A stretch of 36,575 nucleotides of DNA from Candidatus Woesearchaeota archaeon (GTDB lineage: Archaea; Nanobdellota; Nanobdellia; Woesearchaeales; DSVV01). The notes below the pieces were generated by a model. It had not been told where the DNA came from, searched no databases, and saw only the letters and a program-made list of their open reading frames with translations. The DNA lies in NCBI GenBank assembly GCA_016214075.1, contig JACRPI010000041.1, forward strand, positions 1 to 36,575, written 5' to 3'. This document shows positions 1,720-27,958 of the stretch, in pieces (position 1 is the stretch's first letter; each line of letters starts with the position of its first letter). Both the position numbers and the translations under genes were made by a program.

Positions 1720-3303
1720 TTAGTTCAATATTTTTCTAAATTTTTCGCTTCTCCAATGTTTATAATCGCGATGAAGAAGATGCAGCAATTCAAGCAATTT
1801 TTTTGAATTTTTGAGCGCGAGACAATGATGTCTGATAAAATGTTTATCGTATCCAGAAATTTTCTGTAATTTTTCTTGAAGCTGCGCAAGAAAATCTTTG
1901 TCAAATTCAGGGAGATGCTGGAGTACAAAGCCGATAGTTTCATGATGAAGAAGCAGTTGAAGAACATCATCAAGAACAGTTTCATTGCCGAGCTTTGCAA
2001 GTGCGATAATTGCGTAATTTTTTGTAAGAAGTTCTTGTTGATCAAGGATCTCAAGAACGCGTTTCGTAAAGCTTTTGTCTTTAATTTGTCCAATAACATG
2101 AAGTGCTTCTTGTTGCATTTCCTTTGAGCCAGAAAGCATGTCTAAAAGAATGGGTTGGACAGTGATTCTATTTTTCTTCCAAAAAAGTTGACATGCGCGA
2201 GAACGAATTTTAGGATTAGTATGTTCTAGCAATTTTTCAAACTCTTGAAGCGGATCTTCTCCATCTTTACTAAACGATTCAAGTTTTTGCGCTTTGTGAT
2301 CATTGCTGTCCACTTTCAAAAATTTTCTATAAACATCTTCTAAGCCAAGAAGTCCTGCGTTCATTTGATCAACAGATATTTTGTATTGTCGCAGTGCTTG
2401 CGCAACGCGGACAAGAAGTTGTTTGGAGTCAATAGAAGTGTATAAACGGATGCTGTGGGTCTGCCCTTCACTCTCAAGAACAGTATAATCAAGGAAGAGA
2501 TGCTGTTTCTGCAGATTGTAAAGAACTTTGTTGATATTTTTTCCAGTGCAAACAATATCGAGGACATTGGTGTCTCTATACACTTGCTTGAGTTTTTTGA
2601 CAGAGCCGTCAAAAAGAAGTTTTCCTTCATTAATAATAAGAAGCCGCTTGCAGATTTTTTCCACTTCTTGAAGTTGGTGATCAGTGTAAATAATCGTCGT
2701 TCCTTTGTCGTTGAGTTCTTTCAGGATGGAGCGAATTTCATCTTTCGCGTAGGTGTCAAGACCAAGAAGCGGCTCGTCAAGGAAAAGGATTTTTGGATTT
2801 TTGAGCAGCGCGACAGCAAGAGAGTATTTTGCGAGCATGCCTGTGCTCAGACGCCAGACATCGTTGGTGCGTTTGTCTTCAAGTTTGAACTTTTTTAAAA
2901 GATAGTCAATGCGCGGTTTTGCTTCAGCGTCTGGAATGCCGATAAATGAAGCGGCAAGCGCCATGTTCTTTTCAAGAGACGCCCAGCCAATACCAGAATA
3001 ATCTTGACTGAACATCCAGGAAATTTCCTCTTTAATTTTCTCCTGATCTCGTTCAATGTCGTTGCCATAAATTTGCACTTTTCCTGAGGTTTTTCCCATG
3101 TTTGTGGTGAGGATGCGCATAAGGGTGCTTTTTCCCGCGCCATTAACGCCGATAAGGCCGACAAAATCTCCTGTATGGACATCAAAGCTGATGCCAGAGA
3201 GTGCTTTTGTAAGCAGCTTCCCTCGAAAAAATACTTTGTATTGGTAATAATCTTTTTTAAGATCGCGCACAGTGATAATAGGACGTTTCCCTTGCTTTGC
3301 CAT
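1720..3303 (-). CDS. ABC transporter ATP-binding protein with C-terminal HEAT-like extension
   Basis: A 527-aa protein. The first ~240 residues are an ABC ATPase of the ABC-2 exporter type: Walker A GVNGAGKST, Walker B ILFLDEP followed by LLGLD, and a switch histidine in IIYTDHQ. The signature loop reads LSTGM instead of LSGGQ. A linker of ~100 residues leads to an alpha-helical tail (from ~residue 350) with HEAT-like units such as KIRSRACQLFWKKN and MQQEALHVIGQIKD; this roughly doubles the usual ATPase length. ATG at 3303 was chosen because it overlaps the permease stop by one base (TAATG); a GTG nine bases upstream is possible. It is cotranscribed with the permease just upstream. Substrate is unknown. 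Confidence 0.85.
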   Translation of the reverse strand: MAKQGKRPIITVRDLKKDYYQYKVFFRGKLLTKALSGISFDVHTGDFVGLIGVNGAGKSTLMRILTTNMGKTSGKVQIYGNDIERDQEKIKEEISWMFSQDYSGIGWASLEKNMALAASFIGIPDAEAKPRIDYLLKKFKLEDKRTNDVWRLSTGMLAKYSLAVALLKNPKILFLDEPLLGLDTYAKDEIRSILKELNDKGTTIIYTDHQLQEVEKICKRLLIINEGKLLFDGSVKKLKQVYRDTNVLDIVCTGKNINKVLYNLQKQHLFLDYTVLESEGQTHSIRLYTSIDSKQLLVRVAQALRQYKISVDQMNAGLLGLEDVYRKFLKVDSNDHKAQKLESFSKDGEDPLQEFEKLLEHTNPKIRSRACQLFWKKNRITVQPILLDMLSGSKEMQQEALHVIGQIKDKSFTKRVLEILDQQELLTKNYAIIALAKLGNETVLDDVLQLLLHHETIGFVLQHLPEFDKDFLAQLQEKLQKISGYDKHFIRHHCLALKNSKKLLELLHLLHRDYKHWRSEKFRKILN

Positions 3304-4133
3304 TAAAACCACCGTCCTTCAATCTTCGCTCTGCGAATACCGTAGTAAAAGAGATAGAATCCTGCAAGGAAAATCAAGAGGTTGACAATAAGACCGCTCA
3401 AAATGAGAACAAGGATTTCTTTTTGATAATAAACATGATTGAGAAAAAGAGTTTCTCTCCAGATTAAAATGATGTATGCGCTAGGCAATATTTTTGGGAG
3501 AAAGACAAGAAATCTTGGAAGAAATGTGGTTGGAAAGTATTGACCAGAGAAAAATCTGTTAAGCTGTTCCATAAAAAAGCTGACAGGATTTCCTTGTTTC
3601 AAAAACAGTGTTGCGCCGACTGTCATGAGTTGAAATCCTAAATTACCAACAATAAAAATTCCTAACGCGAGAAGCAAGGTGATCCAGTTTTCAAGTCCAA
3701 AATACAGCAGGCTTTCTGTTGCGCTAAACTGCACAAGCAGGCTGTACACAATAATCATTGGAATAAAGATAGTAAATATGTCGAAGAGAAGCATGGTAAG
3801 AAAATTAATAAGAAAATATTCCCCTATGTGCATGTTCGATAAATAGACGAGTTTGAAAAGACCGCTCTGGCTGTCTTCGTGGAATTTATCAGTAAAACTT
3901 GCGCCGACTCCATCGACGAAATAAATTGCGACACTTCCGATAAGGATGAAAGGCATGTATCCGATTCCTTCATAGCCAAGTGTGGAGGGGTCAATAATTT
4001 TCGCGAGAAAGAACCACATAAGCACTTCTAAGCAGGTGTTCATCACATTAATGAGAATGTTCACTTTAAACGTGCAGAACTCTTGCCAGCGACAGATAAA
4101 GTTAGTTTGTAATTTTCGGAAAAACGGAAACAT
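3303..4133 (-). CDS. ABC-2 type transporter permease
   Basis: A 276-aa polytopic membrane protein with about six hydrophobic segments, the typical size and layout of ABC-2 permeases of the drug/polysaccharide export type. The N-terminus is basic (FRKLQTNFICRWQEFCTFK) and precedes the first membrane span. The motif DSQSGLFKLVYLSNM matches the cytoplasmic region of ABC-2 permeases that reads 'xxGxlexlxxsp'. Its stop codon overlaps the start of the ATPase gene, so the two form one export system. The only other gene close to its 5' end is the divergent cluster of tiny basic genes. Cargo cannot be predicted. Confidence 0.8.
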   Translation of the reverse strand: MFPFFRKLQTNFICRWQEFCTFKVNILINVMNTCLEVLMWFFLAKIIDPSTLGYEGIGYMPFILIGSVAIYFVDGVGASFTDKFHEDSQSGLFKLVYLSNMHIGEYFLINFLTMLLFDIFTIFIPMIIVYSLLVQFSATESLLYFGLENWITLLLALGIFIVGNLGFQLMTVGATLFLKQGNPVSFFMEQLNRFFSGQYFPTTFLPRFLVFLPKILPSAYIILIWRETLFLNHVYYQKEILVLILSGLIVNLLIFLAGFYLFYYGIRRAKIEGRWF

Positions 4134-4239: not shown

Positions 4240-4248
4240 TTTATATAG
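4240..4248 (+). promoter_or_regulatory. TATA box of the tiny basic gene cluster
   Basis: TTTATATAG is centred about 27 bases before the ATG at 4271. This implies a leaderless transcript start for the first gene of the cluster. Confidence 0.65.
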
Positions 4249-4270: not shown

Positions 4271-4453
4271 ATGTCTAAAGCAACAGAAGAGAGTTTGCGA
4301 GCGTCGCGGCTCAAGCGTCAGCAAAAAAAAGAAGAAAATGAAAATAAGAGATCTTCGTTTGGTGGATTTGGCAAAGGTTCAACAAGCGGAAGTACGTATC
4401 ATAAATCAGGATTAAAAAAACGCAGTGATTATGGCTCAAATTCATATGAGTAA
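4271..4453 (+). CDS. Tiny basic protein 1 of a six-gene cluster (60 aa)
   Basis: The first gene of the cluster encodes a 60-aa hydrophilic peptide. A lysine/glutamate-rich helical half (SRLKRQQKKEENENKR) is followed by a Gly/Ser-rich half and the tail HKSGLKKRSDYGSNSYE. It has no hydrophobic core, cysteines or membrane segment, so it is probably disordered unless bound to nucleic acid or a partner. It starts at an ATG 27 bases after a TATA box. The Gly-Leu-Lys-Lys/Arg-Arg tail recurs in cluster members 3 and 6 (GLKRR, GLKVR). No family is recognised. Confidence 0.6.
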   Translation: MSKATEESLRASRLKRQQKKEENENKRSSFGGFGKGSTSGSTYHKSGLKKRSDYGSNSYE

Positions 4454-4502
4454 CTAAAAAGCACAATCATGATCTCATCATGAAATAAAGAGGTGGAAAT
4501 AC

Positions 4503-4682
4503 ATGGCATTAAAAAACAGAACAGCAGCAGATGCGGTAAATAATGAAAGAGTGTATGGGACTGCGAAAGCACGATCTGCACTGGTCGATGCAAATCAGGC
4601 AGCAAGAGGACAAGGTCGTGGAAAAATGCAGCAGGGAATGACAGTTGATGGTCGAAAGACAGGCATAGTGCGCCGAAAATAA
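4503..4682 (+). CDS. Tiny basic protein 2 of the cluster (59 aa)
   Basis: An ATG at 4503 follows the Shine-Dalgarno-like GAGGTGG and opens 59 codons. The peptide is Ala/Arg/Gln/Gly-rich, with DANQAARGQGRGKMQQG in the middle and the C-terminus GRKTGIVRRK. The central D-A-x-x-x-A-R-x-x-G pattern and basic tail resemble members 3 and 4. The gene begins 49 bases after gene 1. A correct ribosome binding site together with conserved size and composition supports coding. Function is unknown. Confidence 0.6.
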   Translation: MALKNRTAADAVNNERVYGTAKARSALVDANQAARGQGRGKMQQGMTVDGRKTGIVRRK

Positions 4683-4695
4683 AAAAGGTGAAAAC

Positions 4696-4851
4696 ATGAC
4701 AGGAGCAAGTAAAAGAGACCAAGGAGATAAAAATAATAAAATAATTTTAGACGCACGGAATAAAAGACAAGAAGCAGGGCAACGTCCATCAGGTCCAGGA
4801 ACTTCAACAAACACGCGACCAAACACAGGCTTAAAAAGAAGAAGTGAGTAA
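4696..4851 (+). CDS. Tiny basic protein 3 of the cluster (51 aa)
   Basis: An ATG at 4696, only 13 bases after the stop of gene 2 and preceded by AAGGTG, opens 51 codons. The peptide contains ILDARNKRQEAG, a Pro/Gly/Thr-rich stretch and the C-terminus NTGLKRRSE. The RNKRQEAG segment parallels KEAKRDAG in member 4 and the GLKRRS tail parallels GLKKRS in member 1, which suggests common ancestry. It is hydrophilic, basic and lacks any recognisable domain. Confidence 0.6.
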   Translation: MTGASKRDQGDKNNKIILDARNKRQEAGQRPSGPGTSTNTRPNTGLKRRSE

Positions 4852-4899
4852 ACACTTCCTCATGCCTACATAATCATAGCAGTCAAGGAGGTTATACAC

Positions 4900-5064
4900 A
4901 TGGTAAACATTGGATCAGATCGAAAAGACTCGATGCGAAAAGATAAAAACGAAGCAAAAATCAAAGCAATCCGTGATGCAAAAGAAGCGAAGCGAGACGC
5001 GGGCGTAGCAGCAAACCCGAAAACACAAGGAAGACTTGGGACAGGACACATTAAAAGAGCATAA
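4900..5064 (+). CDS. Tiny basic protein 4 of the cluster (54 aa)
   Basis: An ATG at 4900 lies behind the best ribosome binding site in the cluster, AAGGAGGTT ending 7 bases upstream. The 54-aa peptide is highly charged: a helical Lys/Arg/Asp/Glu stretch containing IRDAKEAKRDAG, then a Gly-rich segment ending LGTGHIKRA. It shares the R-D-A-K/R-x-x-x-R-x-A-G pattern with members 3 and 5. The strong ribosome binding site suggests high expression. No family is recognised. Confidence 0.65.
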   Translation: MVNIGSDRKDSMRKDKNEAKIKAIRDAKEAKRDAGVAANPKTQGRLGTGHIKRA

Positions 5065-5088
5065 TCTCTTTTTACTATCTTTAACAAA

Positions 5089-5244
5089 ATGGCTGCTTCA
5101 CGACGAGAAAAATATGCTCCCGCAGAGATAAGTGCAGATCGCGCTGCGACGCAGCGAGAGCGCAATGAAGCGAGGAATACAGGAAAAGGAGTTTCATTTT
5201 TACGATCAAGATTAAAAAAAGCAACAGATCGTGCGAGAGAATAA
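5089..5244 (+). CDS. Tiny basic protein 5 of the cluster (51 aa)
   Basis: A 51-codon frame from ATG at 5089, 24 bases after gene 4. No Shine-Dalgarno site is seen. The peptide is arginine-rich: SADRAATQRERNEARNTGKG, then SFLRSRLKKATDRARE. The R-N-E-A-x-x-T-G-x-G pattern is shared with members 3 and 4. Composition suggests a helical nucleic-acid- or rRNA-binding peptide, but this is inference from charge only. Confidence 0.55.
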   Translation: MAASRREKYAPAEISADRAATQRERNEARNTGKGVSFLRSRLKKATDRARE

Positions 5245-5261
5245 AAAACGAGGTGTATGAA

Positions 5262-5417
5262 ATGGGAGTAACAAACAAATCTAAAGGTTCAAATACTGAA
5301 GGATCACATGCAAAAACAATGGCAACTCGAAAAGGAAGCGGTGGCTTTAAAGCAGGATTAAAAGTCCGTGGCGGTTCCGGTTCCACCACAGGATTATCCA
5401 CATCCAAAAAAAATTAA
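5262..5417 (+). CDS. Tiny basic protein 6 of the cluster (51 aa)
   Basis: The last gene of the cluster starts at ATG 5262, 17 bases after gene 5 and behind GAGGTG. The 51-aa peptide is Gly/Ser/Thr/Lys-rich, with MATRKGSGGFKAGLKVRGGS in the middle and a Ser/Thr/Lys tail. GGFKAGLKVR echoes the GLKKR/GLKRR element of members 1 and 3. A T-rich tract immediately follows the stop and probably ends the transcript. No function can be assigned. Confidence 0.6.
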   Translation: MGVTNKSKGSNTEGSHAKTMATRKGSGGFKAGLKVRGGSGSTTGLSTSKKN

Positions 5418-5540: not shown

Positions 5541-5574
5541 GACCCATCTCACCCAAGTGAGATGGGGTCTTTTT
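5541..5574 (+). terminator. Hairpin plus T tract (intrinsic-type terminator)
   Basis: GACCCATCTCAC (5541-5552) pairs with GTGAGATGGGGTC (5557-5569, one bulged G) around a CCAA loop and is followed by five T. It lies in the 212-base gap between the tiny gene cluster and the convergent KH gene and points with the cluster. The preceding 120 bases hold no gene, so the hairpin may instead be the 3' end of a small RNA starting after the TATA-like TTCTATATCC near 5459. Confidence 0.6.
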
Positions 5575-5629: not shown

Positions 5630-6157
5630 TCAAATTCTCGTCCGCATTTCTTTTCTGCGTTTTTCAAGCCATTTGTAGACAACAGCATGCGGCGCTCCTT
5701 GAAGCAATGATTCCATTGCGCGTTTGCAAATGCTGACGTTTTCTGTTTCACCGATAATGCCGATGCTTTTCCCATAAACACAAATGTTTGTCTGGGTAAG
5801 CTCTTCAATCACGACCCGTGCTTTTCCCTCTTTCCCTATAATGCGTCCCTTAATACGGAGAAGATGGTTTTCTTTGACATATCGTGTAATGTCAATGAGC
5901 TCAAACACGTAATCTGATTTAAGGAGAAGGAGTGCGATTTCCGGATTAAAGCCACGACCGATTGCGCGAATAATGTCTCTGCTCACATACAGTTGAAGTG
6001 CGTCGCTTCCTTGGATAGTAACATCCCCTTCTTGTGAATCAATGCTTAAATCAACATGCATTTCAGTTTCTACTTTACTTTTGGTTTCCCCTTTTTTGCC
6101 AATAAGAACAGCAATACGTTCTTTTGGTATTTTAACATCGTAGGAAAATTCAGCCAT
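5630..6157 (-). CDS. KH-domain RNA-binding protein, Krr1/Dim2 (Pno1)-like
   Basis: A 175-aa protein with two KH domains. The first shows IGKKGETKSKVETEM near residues 18-33 and the second GRIIGKEGKARVVIEELTQT near 100-120, both with the GxxG-type RNA-binding loop. Size and architecture match archaeal homologues of Krr1/Dim2, a small-subunit ribosome assembly factor that works with RIO kinases; a RIO1 gene lies at 31.7 kb. The ATG at 6157 was chosen because a TATA box (6179-6188, reverse strand) sits 26 bases upstream and the first KH strand begins at residue 4. The longer open frame upstream overlaps the divergent NAD kinase and is not used. Confidence 0.88.
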   Translation of the reverse strand: MAEFSYDVKIPKERIAVLIGKKGETKSKVETEMHVDLSIDSQEGDVTIQGSDALQLYVSRDIIRAIGRGFNPEIALLLLKSDYVFELIDITRYVKENHLLRIKGRIIGKEGKARVVIEELTQTNICVYGKSIGIIGETENVSICKRAMESLLQGAPHAVVYKWLEKRRKEMRTRI

Positions 6158-13884: not shown

Positions 13885-14158
13885 GTGGTAGGCGCCTGAA
13901 GATTGTATCATACACGTTCTGTTGTGTGCTCCTGATCCTTCTCTGTTCCGAACCCCCTGAAGCATCAGGTGCGTCACTGAGTGCTGCTTCATTCCTGACC
14001 TGACACGGTTCATGAAGCATCCGATCCTCAAGGACAGAACATCATTGTACAGACCAAGCACAACAAAATATGTATAATCCGCTCTCCAGTTTCACCCCAT
14101 CATAAGCCAGTTTATGGTGACAGGAGTCGGCTACTCTCCCAGTAGAGCCTACCAAGGA
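13885..14158 (-). ncRNA. ffs: Signal recognition particle 7S RNA
   Basis: Read on the reverse strand, this ~274-base RNA has the SRP domain IV signature GTCAGGTCAGGAATGAAGCA with a GGAA tetraloop (around 13960-13985). The canonical C-C-GGAA-G-G closing pairs are replaced by a covarying C-A/T-G. The 5' end TTGGTAGGC pairs with the 3' end GCCTACCA, closing the long helix. An Alu-domain-like segment with TGTCACC and the loop-loop region follows the 5' end. TATTTTAAATG at 14176-14186 serves as TATA box about 25 bases upstream, and a run of T follows the 3' end. It directs secretory proteins to the membrane with SRP19/SRP54. Confidence 0.93.
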
Positions 14159-14231: not shown

Positions 14232-15041
14232 ATGCAAGCCCAAATTATTTTCTTAGGTACAGCAGGAGACGCGTTCGTCCTCAGTAAGCAGGACAGAATC
14301 GCGGGTGGTTTTATTGTGCAAACAGAGAACGCGCAGCTCCATATCAATCCAGGCCCAGGAGCGTTTCTTGCGGCGAGCCTTGCGAAAATACAAGTCCAAA
14401 AAACAACAGCAGTCATAGTGACAGATAACACATTCATCCACACGCATGATGTGGCTGCGTTAATCGAAGCAATGACCTTGGGAACATTTGACGCGAAAGG
14501 ATTGTTGCTTGGCCCAAAGAGCGCGTTGGAAGAAGTTGATCCAAAAAATCCTCCAAGAGTTCAAAAAAAATATCAGGACGCAGTGGAAAAAACAATTCTT
14601 TTGCAGGAAGAAACAAGAGTAGAATGCAACGGAATTCAAATTCAGACAGTAAAAATAAAAAATAGCGATCCAACTGCAATTGGTCTGAAGATAATCACAA
14701 AAGATTTTTCGTTGGGGTATACAGGAAAAACAAAATACACTGCAAAATTAAAAGATGCGTTCAACGATGTAGAAATAATGATTTTTGAACTTTCCTTATT
14801 AACAGAAGAAAAAAAAGAAGACGGTCTTTGTTTGGAAGAAGTGAAAAAACTCCTTGAAGAAATAAAGCCGCAGCTCGCGGTGCTTACAGGTTTTGGAATT
14901 TCCATACTGAAAGAAGATATTTTGGAACTCACCCGTGCTCTTTACAAGCAAACAGGAGTCCAGGTAATTGCGGCGAAAGAAGGATTTTCTTTTGATCCAA
15001 CAAATTACGCAGTGAAATTGCGGCAGAAAAGATTGATTTAA
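14232..15041 (+). CDS. Metallo-beta-lactamase-fold protein with degenerate metal site
   Basis: A 269-aa protein that starts like MBL-fold hydrolases: IIFLGTAGDAFVLSKQDRIA then QLHINPGPGAF, where active members have the 'LLIDxGPG' strand. The position of the H-x-H-x-D-H zinc motif reads VTDNTFIHTHDVAALIEA, so only an offset H-T-H-D remains. A later LGYTGKTKY strand corresponds to the family's LGYTGDT segment, with the metal-ligand Asp replaced by Lys. It is probably non-catalytic or uses altered chemistry. The gene converges on the mTERF-like gene with a 4-base overlap and is divergent from the SRP RNA. Confidence 0.65.
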   Translation: MQAQIIFLGTAGDAFVLSKQDRIAGGFIVQTENAQLHINPGPGAFLAASLAKIQVQKTTAVIVTDNTFIHTHDVAALIEAMTLGTFDAKGLLLGPKSALEEVDPKNPPRVQKKYQDAVEKTILLQEETRVECNGIQIQTVKIKNSDPTAIGLKIITKDFSLGYTGKTKYTAKLKDAFNDVEIMIFELSLLTEEKKEDGLCLEEVKKLLEEIKPQLAVLTGFGISILKEDILELTRALYKQTGVQVIAAKEGFSFDPTNYAVKLRQKRLI

Positions 15042-16198
15042 TAGCGTCTTTCGAAAGCGGCTACACCTACGCGAAGCTTTTCTTTATTTTTCTCAAGAGA
15101 TGAAATGGATGCGACAAGAAGGAAAGGATATTGCTGTATATGATGGTAGAGTGCTTCAATGGCTGCCTTTTTTTGTTCTTTTGGAATAGTTCTATAATCA
15201 TACAGCTCCAGCAGCATCCATGCCATTTTTTCCCGTTTCTTTTGTGGTGTTGTTCCAAGCAGAATGCCATCATCATAAGCAATACCTCTTGTATAGAGAA
15301 ATTGGATGTTGCCGGTCATTGTGTTAGGAGAAACGCCGAGAAGTTGTGCATAAACAAATACTATATCTCTTCCAGAATTTCTGTCATTATAATCCGATCG
15401 CAGAAGACAGATATGGTTTCGATAATTTCTTTCAACAGTTTTTGGGTGCATTCCAAGCAATTGCGCGTTTGCTGCGATTTTGCTGTTGGATAGTCCAAGT
15501 TTTTTAAGATGATAATGGTTCTTATCTATTTCTTCCGAATCGCGTGCGAGAAGTTGTGCTTGTGATGCTATTTTTTTATCAGTGAGTCCAAGCATATGAA
15601 GCCGCTGATGTTTTTTTTCGAGAGTGGCAGGGTCAGCGCCGAGGAGTTGTGCCTGTGACGCTATTTTTTTTCGCGTTAATCCAATCCGCTTGAGGCATGT
15701 ATAATTTCGTTGCAGTGTTTCTGGATTGCGAAGGAGGAGTCGAAGATGGGTAATTATTTTTGCGTCAGATAATCCAAATCGCTTCAGCGTCCTGTAGCTC
15801 TTCATAATAGTCTGTGGATCTCTTCCGAGAATTTGTGCTTGGGATACAAGCGAAGCGTCGCGCAGTCCAAGTTTCTTGAGAAAGTCATAATTTCTTTGCA
15901 CTGTCTCAGAATGAATGCCCAGTAATTGAGGGTGTGCCGCTATGGTGTTTGGAAGTAAACCAAGAACACATAAATGCTGATAGCGCGATTTGACAATAGT
16001 GGGATCTTCACCGAGGAGATGGGCATGGCGGAGCATGACCTCCTGTTGAATGTCATAAGACGTTAAAAGTTCGTACATTTCTCTGACAGTATTTTCTGTT
16101 GCTTCTGCCCTGTTGAGTATCCAGTCTATGGAAAATTCACTGATGGATGAATCAGGAAAGAATCCATAAAGAATCGCTTCCAAACTAATCTTGTCCAT
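15038..16198 (-). CDS. mTERF-like helical repeat protein
   Basis: A 386-aa protein dominated by at least six clear tandem 31-residue helical repeats (about residues 70-275). The consensus is LGL-x5-I-A-x2-AQLLG-x2-P-x-T-x2-RNY-x2-LKK, e.g. RKKIASQAQLLGADPATLEK and NSKIAANAQLLGMHPKTVER. The leucine/proline spacing resembles mTERF motifs, which form left-handed superhelices that bind nucleic acid in mitochondria and chloroplasts. The C-terminal ~90 residues are helical and not clearly repetitive. TATATAAATA at 16221-16230 lies 27 bases upstream of the ATG, giving a leaderless mRNA. Binding to DNA or RNA is inferred. A structure-based search is needed to separate mTERF from other solenoids. Confidence 0.65.
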   Translation of the reverse strand: MDKISLEAILYGFFPDSSISEFSIDWILNRAEATENTVREMYELLTSYDIQQEVMLRHAHLLGEDPTIVKSRYQHLCVLGLLPNTIAAHPQLLGIHSETVQRNYDFLKKLGLRDASLVSQAQILGRDPQTIMKSYRTLKRFGLSDAKIITHLRLLLRNPETLQRNYTCLKRIGLTRKKIASQAQLLGADPATLEKKHQRLHMLGLTDKKIASQAQLLARDSEEIDKNHYHLKKLGLSNSKIAANAQLLGMHPKTVERNYRNHICLLRSDYNDRNSGRDIVFVYAQLLGVSPNTMTGNIQFLYTRGIAYDDGILLGTTPQKKREKMAWMLLELYDYRTIPKEQKKAAIEALYHHIQQYPFLLVASISSLEKNKEKLRVGVAAFERRY

Positions 16199-18137: not shown

Positions 18138-18644
18138 ATGAGCGGTGTGAAGAAAAAAGACGAGCGACAACTACTTGAAGTACTCACCTTGCTCAAAAAA
18201 GTAGAGCCAAAAGATATTCTCAAGCTTCTGAAGGAAAAAGAAAAGCAAGAACGCCAGCAGCAGAGTCAGCATATTCCTGTTTCTTTATTCGCTGCAACAC
18301 CGCTGAGTAGTCTTGAAGCGATAACAGTGTATCTTCGAGAGAAGCGGCAATTACAATTTGTGCAGATGGAAAAATTACTTGATCGAAATCAGATTGCGTT
18401 GAGTACAACATATAGGCGAGCGAGAAAAAAATATGCGATTTCGCTAGATATTCCAGAAACAAAATGGACAATTCCATGTTTATGTATTGCGGATAAAAAA
18501 TTAAGTGTTCTTGAAAGTATTGTCGTGTATCTAAAAAAAACATATTCTCTCTCTAATGCAAGTATAGCAAAGCTCCTCAAAAAAGATCAAAGAACAATCT
18601 GGACAGTTCTGAACCGTGCGAAGAAGAAGGAGGTGAGAACATGA
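18138..18644 (+). CDS. Two-HTH DNA-binding regulator
   Basis: A 168-aa basic protein. After a charged helical N-terminus it has two similar helix-turn-helix units. The first begins SSLEAITVYLREKRQLQFVQ (from ~residue 57) and ends TTYRRARKKY; the second begins SVLESIVVYLKKTYSLSNAS (from ~residue 121) and ends TIWTVLNRAKKK. Each resembles the sigma-region-4 type HTH with a serine/threonine-containing recognition helix. Two HTH units per chain fit the tandem palindromes upstream. The stop overlaps the start of the giant surface protein by four bases (ATGA), which implies coupled translation and a role in controlling that gene. Confidence 0.65.
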   Translation: MSGVKKKDERQLLEVLTLLKKVEPKDILKLLKEKEKQERQQQSQHIPVSLFAATPLSSLEAITVYLREKRQLQFVQMEKLLDRNQIALSTTYRRARKKYAISLDIPETKWTIPCLCIADKKLSVLESIVVYLKKTYSLSNASIAKLLKKDQRTIWTVLNRAKKKEVRT

Positions 18645-21600
18645 GCGCAGAAAATAAAATGCGGAACATGAATCACCTTCTTGCAACAGTTGTGTTTGTC
18701 TTCTTCATAGTCATCGGAATAATGTTGTCTGTACAAGAAGCAGGAGCAGTTAATACAGGGCTGGGAACAAATGCAACGCTTAAACTCTTTGATGATGGGG
18801 ATATTGTTCCAAACACAGCGAGCAATGTTAAAATACCTGGTCTGGAAATAAACAATTTGTTCAACGATACAAGCAATGTATACTTCTATGCGAATTATAC
18901 AAATGGGACAGGATCTCACATGACTCCAACTCCAGGAACAATATGTAACATTGAGTTTACATCAGAAGCAGGGGGAAACACAGGACCATTTACAATGGTA
19001 AGTAACGCAACGCTTCAATTATTTGAATACAATAGGTCCTTCCAAGGGAATGGTACATTCGCGTGGAACGTCACTTGTGGAAATACAGTTGCGGGAACCG
19101 CGAATGTCACGGTGTATGATAATGTCAGAATATTTGGTCCGGGGTGCACGAGAGTGGGGACAGGATCTGAATTTCCTATCATTAATAATACTATTTTATG
19201 TAGGGATCAGTATCTGATTTCCGGTTCTGAGGCACAGATAGATATTGGTGTTGCGAACATTACCTTAGATTGCAATGGTTCAATAATTGAGTCAGATGAC
19301 CCCGCAGATGATACTAAAGAGAGTGCAATAGCGGTGCGTAGCAAAGGAGTCATAGTCAAGAATTGTAATTTTGCTGGCGCTCGGTTTGGAGTAAAGATCG
19401 AGTCAGGTGCAAATCAAACCCTCCTTTACAATAACACATTTGAAAATAATACACGAGTTGCGATCAATATTACAGGAACATCAGCAGGGAATACGAGCTT
19501 CATCACAATAGATAGCAACAATTTTACAGGAGGTTTCTTTGCAGGATTTGCTATTGACATAAGAAATGCGACGAACATTAACATAACCAGAAATATCTTT
19601 GCAAACAATCATAGCAGGCCACTCATTCGTTATGAAAACGTCTTCATCAATACAACAGACAACAACACGATTCAGCCAAAGCTCATCAGCACAGCAAATA
19701 ATACCGATCAGTATGAAATTAACTTTACATTTAATATTCCAACTCTGGGATTTGCGCGAACCTGTGATCTCGCGCTGAATGTCTCTGGAGGAAGCTTCTC
19801 AGGAAGAACAACAGTGCTTGCTGCGAATGATAATGATGTGAATGTAACATTTAATAGGACGTTTTTCAGTGGAGACAGATTTACTTGGCAAGTCAATTGC
19901 ACGGATCCAAATAATAACACCGGAAACAGTGTTCTATTTAATTCAACATATAGAGCATGCACTCTTCCAATTATATCAGGAATAGGACTTGATCCAGGTA
20001 TAAACGTCACATTCTGTCCTGGAACGTTTAGGATAAATATATCGTCATCATCACATTTTATAGAAATTAATAATGTTAATGACTCTGTCATCAGTTGTAA
20101 TAATACTATTATAATTGGAAACAGTAGTGGAGATTTATTCAGTATTGTGAATGGCTCAAACAGAGTTCGAATCCAGCATTGTCTTGCAGAGAATTATAGC
20201 ACTATGATCAAGACACAATCCTTATCATCATCAAGAAATGTTACCATATTCAATAACACCTTCAGTAATGCGTCAAGCGAAGCGATACTTATACACGCAG
20301 AAGGATTTAATCTAACAAATAATACTATTGCAAACTCAACAATAGGTGTTCACCTGATTAATAGAGGAAATCATACGCTTCTGAACAACACGATCAAAGG
20401 GTCTGGTCGTTCCGCGCTTATAGTAGAGAATACATCAAGCAACACTGTCCTTTGGAATAATTTATCTTTTGGTTCGGAAAATGGGATTATCATTAATGTT
20501 GGTGCGGTGGCGGGATTGCCTGCCTCTGTGACAAGACCAGAGTTTGTGAATCTCATTGCAAATAATACTGTCTGTGGGTTTAGAGTAAATGGGCTGTCTG
20601 TTGAAAACACTCGTTTTAGTACAAGCCCAATAATGGATGGTCTTATTGCGAATAACACCTTTTGCAATACAACGACAGGAACAGAAAATGGAAACATTTC
20701 ACGACTGATGTGGAATATAGATATTCAGGCGGTGAACGCGACAAACACATCAATGGTTGATGTAAACATAAACATCACAAATCTATTGAATAGAAGTACG
20801 CTCCAAAATGTGGGAACCCCAAGCGATGGCATCGTTTCATTCCTGAATATTACACAGTTTATAGTAAATAATAGTAACATCCTTGTCAATGAATCACCAA
20901 CAACATTGGTCGGTGCAAAGAATAATGAAAAAACAAATCTGACATTACTCATTGATCAATTGCGAATAGTGCCATTAGCAAACCAACTCATCCTCAATCT
21001 CAGTCAAGATAATACTCCTCCAAATGTCACGCAAATATCTCCAACAACAGCAAATGAAGATACAAACATTAACTTTAGTGCAACTGTTGTTGATCAAACA
21101 GGAATACAATCATGTAGTTTGTTTGCTGGTACGGGTAGTTCGATAACAAACAGAGGAGTGATGACATACTCATTGAGTAATGGAATAGTAAACAGAACAC
21201 TGCTTCTTGCAGATCCAGATACATATACGATTTATGCAAATTGCACGGACAACGGAGGAAATATTGGGTTCAACACAACACTTGTTGAGATTAATGACAC
21301 AACACCACCAAATGCATCAGTTATTTCTCCTCTAGCGAACAATTTCACTGCAATGAACAGCGTGGTTAATATAACAGTCAACGGTTCGGATAATGTCTTC
21401 GTTATATCCGGGCAAGCAAACATTACCTATCCAAATAATACAACAAAAGAAACGCTGACATTGCAAGCTAACGATAGTATCCTCTCCACGAAAAGGAAGT
21501 TGACATTTAATTACAGTTTCGGAAATACATCAATGGAAGGGCATTACAATGTTACAATTACTGTGTTAGATCAGACAGGAAACCTGAACACAACGGAAAA

Positions 21601-23755
21601 AACAAACTTCACAGTAGATTCAACAGGCCCTGCAATAACAAACATAAATCCAGTATCAAACACAACAGGGGTAAGAAATGGAACAGTAATTAACATCAGT
21701 GTCAATGTCAGTGACCTCTTTTTAAATGTCGAGAAAGTATTTGCAAACATTACATATCCAGATAATAGCACAAAAGAACAAGTAGCTTTAGTAAAGGTTG
21801 GAAACATTTACAATTTCAGTTTCGCAAACACAACAGCGCATGGTCTTTACAATATCACATTCATTGCGAATGACACAGCAGGAAATCTCAACACAAGCGA
21901 GAAAACAAATTTCACCAGTGATGACGCAAATCCACAAGTGAGTGAAGTCACTCCTACTTCTGGAACTGCGGGATCATTCACATTCACAGCAACAGTGACG
22001 GATAATATAGGAATAGAATCATGCAATCTCTTTGTAGGTGTTGCAGGTTCGGAAACAACAAATCAAGGAGCAATGACATATTCCTCAGCAACGAATCTCT
22101 CAACAGCATCAATAACACTAAGCACAGCAGGGGCATATACAGTGTACTCAAATTGTACAGACACCTCTGGAAATATTGGATTAAACAGTACAAGTGTTTC
22201 AGTTTCACTTGTTTCAGGAGGCGGCGGAGATGACGGTGGAGATGAAGGAGGCAGTAGCGCAGGAGGTGGTGGAGCAGCTCCTGCGGCAGCAGAGACCGCA
22301 ACAGAAACAGCAGAGCCTGCGGCAGAAGAAACTGCACCAGCAGAAACAGCAGCAGAAACAGGTGCAGAGGCAGCAGCAGAAGCAGCTAGTGAAGGAGATG
22401 GTGAACAAGATGAGGAGGAAGAGATTGAAGCAGAAGCGGCAATCCTCGCAGAAGAAGGGGGTATTGAAATAACAAGCATTACCGCAAACGATGTTACTGT
22501 CTACGAAAATGGAGAGCAAGTGGATACAGTCACAATAAAAGATGAAGACGTCTTGGTGCTTGAAATTACAATAACCAACCCAGAAGAAGGAGTAGCGGAA
22601 AATCTTGAGGTGCTCCTCAAAAATCTTCCAGAAAGTATAAGCATAGAAGATCTTTCGCCAGAAATTATTGAAGCATTAGAGGCAGGCGAAACACAGACTA
22701 TACGAATTGAGTTAGAATCAGGTGATGTAACAGAAACCTTTAGCTTAGATATAGAAATACGGAGTCTGACTGCGTATGCGTCTGTCTCTATCGGAACAGT
22801 ATTAGAAGAAGGGAAAGGACAATTATATTATACGCGCCAGAAGATAATTGAAGAAACAAAAGAAGTAGTTATTAGAACGTATAAAATATTGTTCCTCTTG
22901 TTCCTCGTTCCAATCTTACTCTTACTCCGTGCAACAACAATTGTTGATGAAAATGCACTGAGGAGAATGATTGATGATAAAAAATTAGGAGACCATTGGC
23001 GAGTCTATGTTCCAGAACAAAGTTATTTGAAATATAACATGTTCCAGAACTTGAAGCCAATACATCTTGAAGAGGATGAAGTCGCAAAGGCAAATCAGCT
23101 TGTACATGAGGGAAAAATATCTTATTCTCTTGCAACAATGATTCTGTATGCAAACAAAAAAATGATTCCAAGAGTCTTCACTCTAGAAAAAGTGTCTGAC
23201 GAAATAAGGCACAAATATCCGCGTGTTTATTTCACGTCACCATTGCGCGATTATAGAGAAGAACAACTCCAACGATACGTCGAAATGCAGAAGAAGAAAG
23301 GCTACAAGAGTAATGACATACGAGAAGCGTTGCTTGCAGCAAAATGGGATGCGGCAGTCGTTAAAAAATATCTCAATCCTGAAGAGGATCTTGCACAATA
23401 CATTGCAGAACAGCAAAAACAAGGAAAATCGTTGGGAGAACTACGAAAAGAATTGCTTGAAGTCAAGTGGGATAAAGCAGTCGTGGATAAACATATCCCG
23501 CGTGAAACTGTCTTAAAAGAGTATATCGCTGTTCAGAGAAAAACAGGAAAGACGAATGAGCAACTAAGAAAAGAATTGATAAAAGTTGGCTGGGAGAAGG
23601 AACTTGTGAAAAAATACTTGAATCCGGAAAATGATCTGAAAGCGTATGTGGTAAGCCAGCAACATAAAGGAGTAAGCAATGAACAGATTAAGCAGCAGTT
23701 GATAAAAGGAAAATGGAAGAAAGAGGTAGTAGAGAGAATTTTCTCAAATAAGTAG
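18641..23755 (+). CDS. Giant surface protein: beta-helix, Ig-like repeats, membrane anchor, cytoplasmic repeats
   Basis: A 1704-aa protein. Residues ~12-36 form a signal peptide/anchor. Residues ~180-700 contain parallel beta-helix repeats rich in N-N-T and N-x-T/S sites, including GVIVKNCNF and NLTNNTIANS. Four Ig-like repeats open with variants of DxTPPNxxxISP (starting ~789, 886, 992, 1093). An Ala/Glu-rich linker (~1192-1273) leads to a CARDB-like beta domain (~1275-1375) and a membrane helix (ILFLLFLVPILLLL, ~1418). The cytoplasmic tail ends in four 41-residue repeats from ~1540 (L-x2-Y-x3-Q-x2-G-x4-L-R-x2-L-x3-W-x4-V-x-K). Dense sequons suggest heavy N-glycosylation; adhesin or S-layer-like function is inferred. 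Confidence 0.82.
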   Translation: MSAENKMRNMNHLLATVVFVFFIVIGIMLSVQEAGAVNTGLGTNATLKLFDDGDIVPNTASNVKIPGLEINNLFNDTSNVYFYANYTNGTGSHMTPTPGTICNIEFTSEAGGNTGPFTMVSNATLQLFEYNRSFQGNGTFAWNVTCGNTVAGTANVTVYDNVRIFGPGCTRVGTGSEFPIINNTILCRDQYLISGSEAQIDIGVANITLDCNGSIIESDDPADDTKESAIAVRSKGVIVKNCNFAGARFGVKIESGANQTLLYNNTFENNTRVAINITGTSAGNTSFITIDSNNFTGGFFAGFAIDIRNATNINITRNIFANNHSRPLIRYENVFINTTDNNTIQPKLISTANNTDQYEINFTFNIPTLGFARTCDLALNVSGGSFSGRTTVLAANDNDVNVTFNRTFFSGDRFTWQVNCTDPNNNTGNSVLFNSTYRACTLPIISGIGLDPGINVTFCPGTFRINISSSSHFIEINNVNDSVISCNNTIIIGNSSGDLFSIVNGSNRVRIQHCLAENYSTMIKTQSLSSSRNVTIFNNTFSNASSEAILIHAEGFNLTNNTIANSTIGVHLINRGNHTLLNNTIKGSGRSALIVENTSSNTVLWNNLSFGSENGIIINVGAVAGLPASVTRPEFVNLIANNTVCGFRVNGLSVENTRFSTSPIMDGLIANNTFCNTTTGTENGNISRLMWNIDIQAVNATNTSMVDVNINITNLLNRSTLQNVGTPSDGIVSFLNITQFIVNNSNILVNESPTTLVGAKNNEKTNLTLLIDQLRIVPLANQLILNLSQDNTPPNVTQISPTTANEDTNINFSATVVDQTGIQSCSLFAGTGSSITNRGVMTYSLSNGIVNRTLLLADPDTYTIYANCTDNGGNIGFNTTLVEINDTTPPNASVISPLANNFTAMNSVVNITVNGSDNVFVISGQANITYPNNTTKETLTLQANDSILSTKRKLTFNYSFGNTSMEGHYNVTITVLDQTGNLNTTEKTNFTVDSTGPAITNINPVSNTTGVRNGTVINISVNVSDLFLNVEKVFANITYPDNSTKEQVALVKVGNIYNFSFANTTAHGLYNITFIANDTAGNLNTSEKTNFTSDDANPQVSEVTPTSGTAGSFTFTATVTDNIGIESCNLFVGVAGSETTNQGAMTYSSATNLSTASITLSTAGAYTVYSNCTDTSGNIGLNSTSVSVSLVSGGGGDDGGDEGGSSAGGGGAAPAAAETATETAEPAAEETAPAETAAETGAEAAAEAASEGDGEQDEEEEIEAEAAILAEEGGIEITSITANDVTVYENGEQVDTVTIKDEDVLVLEITITNPEEGVAENLEVLLKNLPESISIEDLSPEIIEALEAGETQTIRIELESGDVTETFSLDIEIRSLTAYASVSIGTVLEEGKGQLYYTRQKIIEETKEVVIRTYKILFLLFLVPILLLLRATTIVDENALRRMIDDKKLGDHWRVYVPEQSYLKYNMFQNLKPIHLEEDEVAKANQLVHEGKISYSLATMILYANKKMIPRVFTLEKVSDEIRHKYPRVYFTSPLRDYREEQLQRYVEMQKKKGYKSNDIREALLAAKWDAAVVKKYLNPEEDLAQYIAEQQKQGKSLGELRKELLEVKWDKAVVDKHIPRETVLKEYIAVQRKTGKTNEQLRKELIKVGWEKELVKKYLNPENDLKAYVVSQQHKGVSNEQIKQQLIKGKWKKEVVERIFSNK

Positions 23756-26768: not shown

Positions 26769-26884
26769 TATTGTCTTAGGATGGTATCACTTCACATAAA
26801 AGCAGAAAGCAAATTCACAACCTTTTAAAACCGCACTCTATTGTCTATTTTATGACAAGTTAATTCTTGAAGAAGAGGGATATC

Positions 26885-27958
26885 ATGGAGAAAAAAAAAC
26901 AATCTATTGTGAAAGAACATGGTTCTGAAAAAGTAAAACAAACACAGGCACCTATTGCTCCTGTCAGAGAAGCACCAAAAGTCCTTTTTGAGTTGGATAC
27001 AAAGCTTCTCCTTATTGCAGTAGTAGGAATACTATTACTCGTCTTAGTAACATATAATTCAAATTCTTTTTCTGATCTTTTCTCATTCGATACTGTCGTT
27101 GCAACAGTGAATGGGGTAGAAATCACAGAAAGCAGTCTTCAAAAAGAAATTGACAAACTTCCAGAGTATTACAAAAATGGAGCAATTGATGAGGAAACAC
27201 TTCGTTCCGCGATTCTCGAGCAGCTGATTGCAAGAGAATTATTGCTTGCAGAAGCAGAGAATAAAGGGGTCAGCGTAAGCAGCGCAGAATTAGAAGCAAC
27301 TATTGCAAATATTACAGCAGAAGCGCAGGTAACGCTGGAAGAGCTTCAACAAAAATTAGAAGAACAGAACGTTACTATGAATGAGTTTAAAGAAGCAATA
27401 GAAACACAGATACTCATGAACAAACTGATTGAGCAGCAGGTTCTTGCGGATGTGAGTGTGACAGAAGAAGAGCTCCTTTCCTATTATGAAACGCAAAAAG
27501 ATACTCTCACAGAAGTTCGAGCAAGTAACATTCTCATTTGTTATACTGGTGCTTTACGATGTGAAAGCAATATGACAAAAGAAGAGGCATTGGAACAAGC
27601 AACAGCACTCATTGAAAGAATAAAAGCAGGGGAAAGCTTCGAAGCGCTCGCAAAGGAATATTCAACAGATCCTTCTGCGGAGTTTAATGGGGGAGATCTT
27701 GGTTGGTTCGCAAAAGGACAAATGGTTGCAGAGTTTGAAACAGCGGCATTTAGTCTGAATGCAGGAGAAATGACTGAAGAACCTGTAGAAACAGCGTTTG
27801 GATATCATATTATTATGGTAACAGACAAGAAAGAGACGCTTGAAGATGTGCAGGAAGAAATTCTTGCAACACTGACGCTCGAGAAGCAGAAAACAGCAGT
27901 CGAGAATTATGTCCTTGCACTCAAGCAAGTTGCAAAAATTGTGTATGGAGAAGAGTAA
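26885..27958 (+). CDS. Membrane-anchored parvulin-type peptidyl-prolyl isomerase (PpiC/SurA-like)
   Basis: A 357-aa protein with a charged cytoplasmic N-terminus, one membrane span (KLLLIAVVGILLLVLVTY, about residues 42-59) and an extracytoplasmic SurA-like chaperone region (VVATVNGVEITESSLQKEID). A parvulin domain spans ~215-320: VRASNILICY, EEALEQATALIERIKAGESF, DPSAEFNGGDLGWFAKGQMV and AFGYHIIMVTDKK. It should fold or isomerise exported proteins on the outer face. ATG 26885 was chosen over TTG 26867 because GAAGAGGGA lies just upstream as a ribosome binding site. Confidence 0.88.
   Translation: MEKKKQSIVKEHGSEKVKQTQAPIAPVREAPKVLFELDTKLLLIAVVGILLLVLVTYNSNSFSDLFSFDTVVATVNGVEITESSLQKEIDKLPEYYKNGAIDEETLRSAILEQLIARELLLAEAENKGVSVSSAELEATIANITAEAQVTLEELQQKLEEQNVTMNEFKEAIETQILMNKLIEQQVLADVSVTEEELLSYYETQKDTLTEVRASNILICYTGALRCESNMTKEEALEQATALIERIKAGESFEALAKEYSTDPSAEFNGGDLGWFAKGQMVAEFETAAFSLNAGEMTEEPVETAFGYHIIMVTDKKETLEDVQEEILATLTLEKQKTAVENYVLALKQVAKIVYGEE

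Follow-up and report, generated by a model that had tools for sequence, protein, structure and literature searches.

RMF of E. coli is a basic, ribosome-binding protein of about 55 aa. The minor small acid-soluble spore proteins of Bacillus (SspK, SspN, SspO and SspP) are mutually unrelated, small, hydrophilic and disordered; they are made together, and their role is poorly known. Phenol-soluble modulins are several small leaderless peptides, amphipathic and membrane-active, that go with the Pmt ABC exporter. More generally, arrays of secreted peptides are typically small, fast-evolving and multi-gene, with gene turnover. Hydrophilins are defined by a Gly content above 6% and a hydrophilicity index above 1, and RMF is counted among them (PMC7448490). 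In Halobacterium salinarum, the small basic protein Brb cooperates with Brz and Bat and is co-transcribed with the regulator gene brz (PMC3184054). Our literature search found nothing on clusters of the kind described here.

The window, a stretch of 36,575 nucleotides from a Candidatus Woesearchaeota archaeon (contig 41 of assembly G000; assembly size 1.62 Mb, 98% complete), carries six consecutive plus-strand ORFs at 4271-5417 in its ORF list, which we call P1 to P6. They lie between a divergent ABC transporter pair and a convergent KH protein gene, as follows:

1720..3312, minus strand: ABC ATPase, DrrA-like, with C-terminal HEAT repeats (PF00005, 7.7e-28; PF13646, 5.5e-9)
3303..4133, minus strand: ABC permease, 276 aa, divergent from the cluster, without a Pfam or NCBIfam match
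4240..4247, plus strand: TATA box TTTATATA of the small-protein operon, its center 27 nt before the P1 ATG
4271..4453, plus strand: P1, 60 aa, charge +7, with a short C-terminal extension after the tail KSGLKKR; coding score +0.13
4503..4682, plus strand: P2, 59 aa, charge +9, tail RKTGIVRRK; Shine-Dalgarno GAGGTG; coding score +0.30
4696..4851, plus strand: P3, 51 aa, charge +7, tail NTGLKRRSE; Shine-Dalgarno GGTG; coding score +0.23
4900..5064, plus strand: P4, 54 aa, charge +8, tail TGHIKRA; Shine-Dalgarno GGAGGT; coding score +0.32
5089..5244, plus strand: P5, 51 aa, charge +7, predicted helical, with a conserved RNTG.G.SF; no Shine-Dalgarno
5262..5417, plus strand: P6, 51 aa, charge +9, 22% Gly, ATG start at 5262; Shine-Dalgarno GAGGTG at 5250-5255; coding score +0.26
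5543..5574, plus strand: intrinsic-type terminator with a perfect 10-bp stem, a 4-nt loop and a T-run; single copy in the window
5630..6157, minus strand: Pno1/Dim2-type KH protein (PF22891, PF00013), convergent neighbor and synteny anchor

The KH protein is 79-80% identical in two congeners (JAHFMP010000051.1 and JACRKI010000035.1), through which we found the equivalent loci, L014 and L015. In both of these other species examined in the genus, five orthologous ORFs lie in unchanged order beside the KH gene, which is convergent with them there too. L014 carries P1, P2, P4, P5 and P6 and lacks P3 in its cluster; the permease is also adjacent there. L015 carries P2 to P6 on a contig that begins just before P2. 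P1 has its orthologue in L014 (29/55 identical, z 16) and P3 in L015 (GPGT..NTRP.TG), while P2, P4, P5 (z 11-24) and the weakly conserved P6 have orthologues in both relatives, between which P5 is the best conserved small protein. Orthologues are 34-62% identical between species, and, apart from one P2 pair and one P6 pair, their alignments score above every shuffle or almost every one.

The signals around the six ORFs are consistent with a single operon. Its TATA box is contained in a promoter block, AAACAAAACATTTATATA, which is identical in L014. With the box centered 27 nt before the P1 ATG, the P1 mRNA is probably leaderless; a TATA-like sequence, TTTTTTAAG, stands at a similar distance, about 27 nt, before the permease ATG. 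Shine-Dalgarno sites precede P2, P3, P4 and P6, whereas P5 is without one in the window, in L014 and in L015 alike. The good ribosome binding sites that the initial annotation had seen for several frames are present for four of them, with P5 having none and P1 probably leaderless. All six of its consecutive frames of 51-60 codons exist, although the start of P6 had to be corrected: we rejected GTG 5253 because it falls inside the GAGGTG Shine-Dalgarno, and placed the start at ATG 5262, and the L015 orthologue shows the same AGAGGTG-to-ATG spacing. The single TATA box proposed to frame the cluster also stood, but the proposed downstream T tract proved to be a perfect 10-bp hairpin plus T-run. 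This is a perfect terminator of the bacterial intrinsic type, in an archaeon; a terminator of this type is absent in L014, where P6 and the KH gene abut.

The coding potential of the six frames was assessed with a codon-usage model trained on 15 other genes of the window, in which true gene segments average +0.21 and wrong frames give -0.08 to -0.14. In-frame scores were positive for all six ORFs (+0.07 to +0.32 per codon), the signal being weakest for P5, with 0.073 vs 0.084 in a shifted frame. In nucleotide-only alignments of the orthologues, 1021/1183 columns (86%) are in frame, and mismatches at codon positions 1/2/3 number 101/98/154. The KH gene, compared between the window and L014, shows 34/8/83 at the same positions. 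By this comparison, constraint acts on the small genes, but their rate of evolution is far higher; the six small proteins are fast-evolving yet under purifying selection. On the opposite strand, ORFs of 97-108 aa lie across the cluster and would allow the six frames to be spurious or mere shadows of genes on the other strand. However, every antisense codon score is negative (-0.07 to -0.29), for which we rejected antisense genes here, and the sense frames, their order and most Shine-Dalgarno sites are kept in two other species, leaving that explanation hardly credible. On this comparative evidence, P1 to P6 are almost certainly real, co-transcribed genes. The initial annotation had proposed real coding frames, whose conservation and coding signal were to decide the matter, and both the codon scores and the frames conserved in two other species bear it out; its view of one operon encoding basic peptides outside known families is likewise supported, and the peptides are hydrophilic too.

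The cluster has a very narrow distribution. No peptide matched Pfam up to E 10, no small protein had a significant match in NCBIfam, PHROGs, PADLOC or PDB, and no relatives were found on viral contigs (P2, P4, P5), in phages (P5) or on plasmids (P2). The initial annotation had suggested a profile search for clusters elsewhere, and this returned congeners only. Across 353 genomes of the order, profiles built from all peptides (A1), from P5 (A2) and from P2 (A4) gave true matches in three congeners only, and across 371 genomes sampled from the phylum, A1 matched only G000 and G009, G008 not being among the matches. We found no homologue of the small proteins in eight other genomes of the family, and no further copies in the organism's own genome in a profile search up to E 10. 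A search for clusters by ORF properties at 80 KH-anchored loci recovered only the two congeners. Among the weak matches of these profiles outside the genus, those that we inspected (L039-L041, L044, L160-L166 and L177) were rejected: none has a comparable small-ORF cluster, and many overlie other genes. Short, low-complexity profiles such as these could let strongly diverged relatives escape; within the searches made, the cluster occurs in a single genus of Woesearchaeota. In uncultured archaea, genes of this size often go unnoticed, and here six in one row are shown comparatively. The row is found in one genus only, with a tail common to four of its members and no homologue in the libraries searched. 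If expressed and functional, these proteins would be an example of presumably symbiotic archaea building new nucleic-acid-binding or secreted proteins.

The relationship among the six proteins proved more limited than first proposed. They had been described as six diverged paralogues with a common R-x-x-x-R-x-E-A-G middle and a GLKKR/GLKRR-type tail. Within the window, only the pairs P1-P3 (z 4.7) and P3-P4 (z 3.2) are clearly beyond shuffles, the rest being marginal or not distinguishable, and the middle motif is convincing only for P3 vs P4. A free gapless-block search was significant in the window set only at width 8 (3/300 shuffles), where the block is the tail, and gave no significant shared block in either relative. 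Profiles that leave out one orthogroup at a time recognize, of the window peptides, only P3. Ten of the 16 peptides from the three species carry the tail motif, chosen post hoc, among their last 20 residues, against a shuffle mean of 0.17. With a tail matrix derived from the other orthogroups, the top match in P2, P3 and P4 falls 11-14 residues before the C-terminus whatever the species, the score itself being significant for some only. From these sequence comparisons we conclude that P1 to P4 have a common C-terminal tail, [T/S/A]G-x-[K/V/I/M]-[K/R], acquired through descent or convergence. The similarity of P5 and P6 to the other members is indistinguishable from shuffles, and their relatedness to the rest is not demonstrable at this level. 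Consequently, paralogy applies to P1-P4 at most, the tail to the same four, and the middle to P3 and P4.

What might these proteins do? All 16 peptides are strongly basic (charge +6 to +9, pI 10.0-11.6), free of Cys and hydrophilic (GRAVY -0.56 to -1.74), which makes a signal peptide or a membrane segment unlikely; by inspection, none has a GG leader or a hydrophobic stretch. AlphaFold2 places a helix at residues 8-38 of P4, followed by a loose, low-confidence tail (mean pLDDT 62), and helices at 11-31 and 34-50 of P5 (mean pLDDT 70), both being weak predictions built on three sequences. We hypothesize that the small proteins act in the cytosol by binding RNA, DNA or the ribosome. The charged N-terminal stretch, predicted helical in P4 and P5, would be complemented in P1-P4 by a flexible C-terminal tail making electrostatic contact, and the co-expressed set might cover or modulate the nucleoid or the ribosome as its polyanionic target, in the way RMF does on E. 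coli ribosomes.

We give a probability of about 35% to this tentative reading, in which P1 to P6 are cytosolic helix-plus-basic-tail binders of nucleic acid or ribosome, similar in character to RMF and the minor spore proteins. It is consistent with the order and frames kept in three species, the positive coding scores, the shared composition of the 16 peptides, the tail found in 10 of them, the helix-plus-tail prediction for P4, and the residues kept between orthologues, which are often R, K, N, T or G. On the other hand, a basic composition is generic evidence, and no homology links any of the proteins to a nucleic-acid-binding family. Apart from the convergent KH gene, which in other genera of the family adjoins different genes, the neighbors give no pointer to nucleoid or ribosome. 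RMF is small, basic and ribosome-bound, as proposed for P1-P6, but it is a single bacterial gene with its own Pfam family, whereas P1-P6 match none. The Bacillus minor spore proteins are likewise several small hydrophilic proteins made as a set; theirs, however, are spore-specific and bacterial, and P1-P6 match no such Pfam family. We know of no sporulation in Woesearchaeota. Two archaeal histone genes (PF00808) are present in G000, which also counts against nucleic-acid binding, and two in G008, while none was found in G009 (89% complete). Because the organism encodes two histones of its own, we rejected a replacement of histones as main nucleoid protein, and the nucleoid role listed by the initial annotation is unlikely as a sole role; the specific functions it named go beyond what the data support.

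The same composition would fit stress protectants of the hydrophilin or LEA type, disordered proteins that shield macromolecules without a specific partner. With -GRAVY taken as the index, 10 of the 16 peptides reach both the Gly and the hydrophilicity thresholds, but six fall short. Moreover, tail residues and, in P5, RNTG.G.SF are selectively conserved, which suggests specific contacts, and no stress-repeat family is matched, so that we regard general protection as improbable. Small modulators of transcription or translation that work with protein partners, as Brb does, are similarly doubtful. P1-P6 resemble Brb in being small, basic, archaeal and operon-encoded. Unlike Brb, a single protein encoded with the regulator gene brz, they form an array of six genes whose operon holds no regulator gene, and Brb is likened to them by description alone. 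The tail of P1-P4 would also allow a lineage-specific disordered set recognized by one partner, either the ribosome or the HEAT domain of the neighboring ABC ATPase, through a common docking tail, [T/S/A]G-x-[K/V]-[K/R], with divergent N-terminal halves serving different functions. Such a microprotein set would be of an undescribed type, and we consider this explanation rather unlikely.

The main rival to cytosolic binding comes from the transporter genes upstream. By analogy with the phenol-soluble modulins, also several small leaderless peptides beside an ABC exporter, P1-P6 could be leaderless substrates of the divergent ABC-2 pair, secreted to act on a partner organism or on competitors. 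The permease is 81% identical in L014, with only two distant matches (25-26% identity) elsewhere among the 353 genomes of the order, and the ATPase has a 74% identical orthologue, within the family in G009 only. The two distributions are therefore nearly equal and narrow (permease orthologue 2/353, peptides 3/353); the gene order is conserved in L014, and the cluster, with its several small and fast-evolving genes and its turnover (P3 is absent from L014), looks as a secreted array typically does. The initial annotation had proposed to look for co-occurrence with the ABC pair, and peptides and pair do occur together in G000 and G009, the two species with both sides assembled. In G008, however, neither a permease nor a close ATPase orthologue was found, in an assembly that is 82% complete and whose contig ends inside the cluster, at P2. 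A narrow distribution common to both within a single genus amounts to one phylogenetic event, and peptides and pair have separate promoters. The peptides lack a double-Gly or Sec/Tat leader, a hydrophobic or amphipathic core and Cys, and we saw no maturation or immunity gene. They are very hydrophilic, in contrast to the amphipathic modulins, and the match of the ATPase to PmtA is generic and below cut-off. Weighing both sides, we consider export unlikely, if the strongest competitor to cytosolic binding.

The best NCBIfam model for the ATPase is drrA, below that model's cut-off. Here an ATPase-HEAT fusion pairs with just one permease, itself outside any known family, and the orthologues of the pair are found in one congener only. 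Elsewhere, the window carries at 13886-14154 an archaeal SRP RNA, in keeping with its assignment to Woesearchaeota, and, at 15038-16198 (minus strand), a gene for a 386-aa protein matching mTERF (PF02536, E 1.6e-12), a family chiefly associated with mitochondria and chloroplasts. At 18138-23755 (plus strand), a 168-aa ORF weakly resembling sigma-70 region 4 is followed by the gene for a probable surface protein of 1704 aa, with beta-helix and Ig domains. A SurA/PpiC-type peptidyl-prolyl isomerase, in an archaeon, is encoded at 26867-27958 (plus strand).
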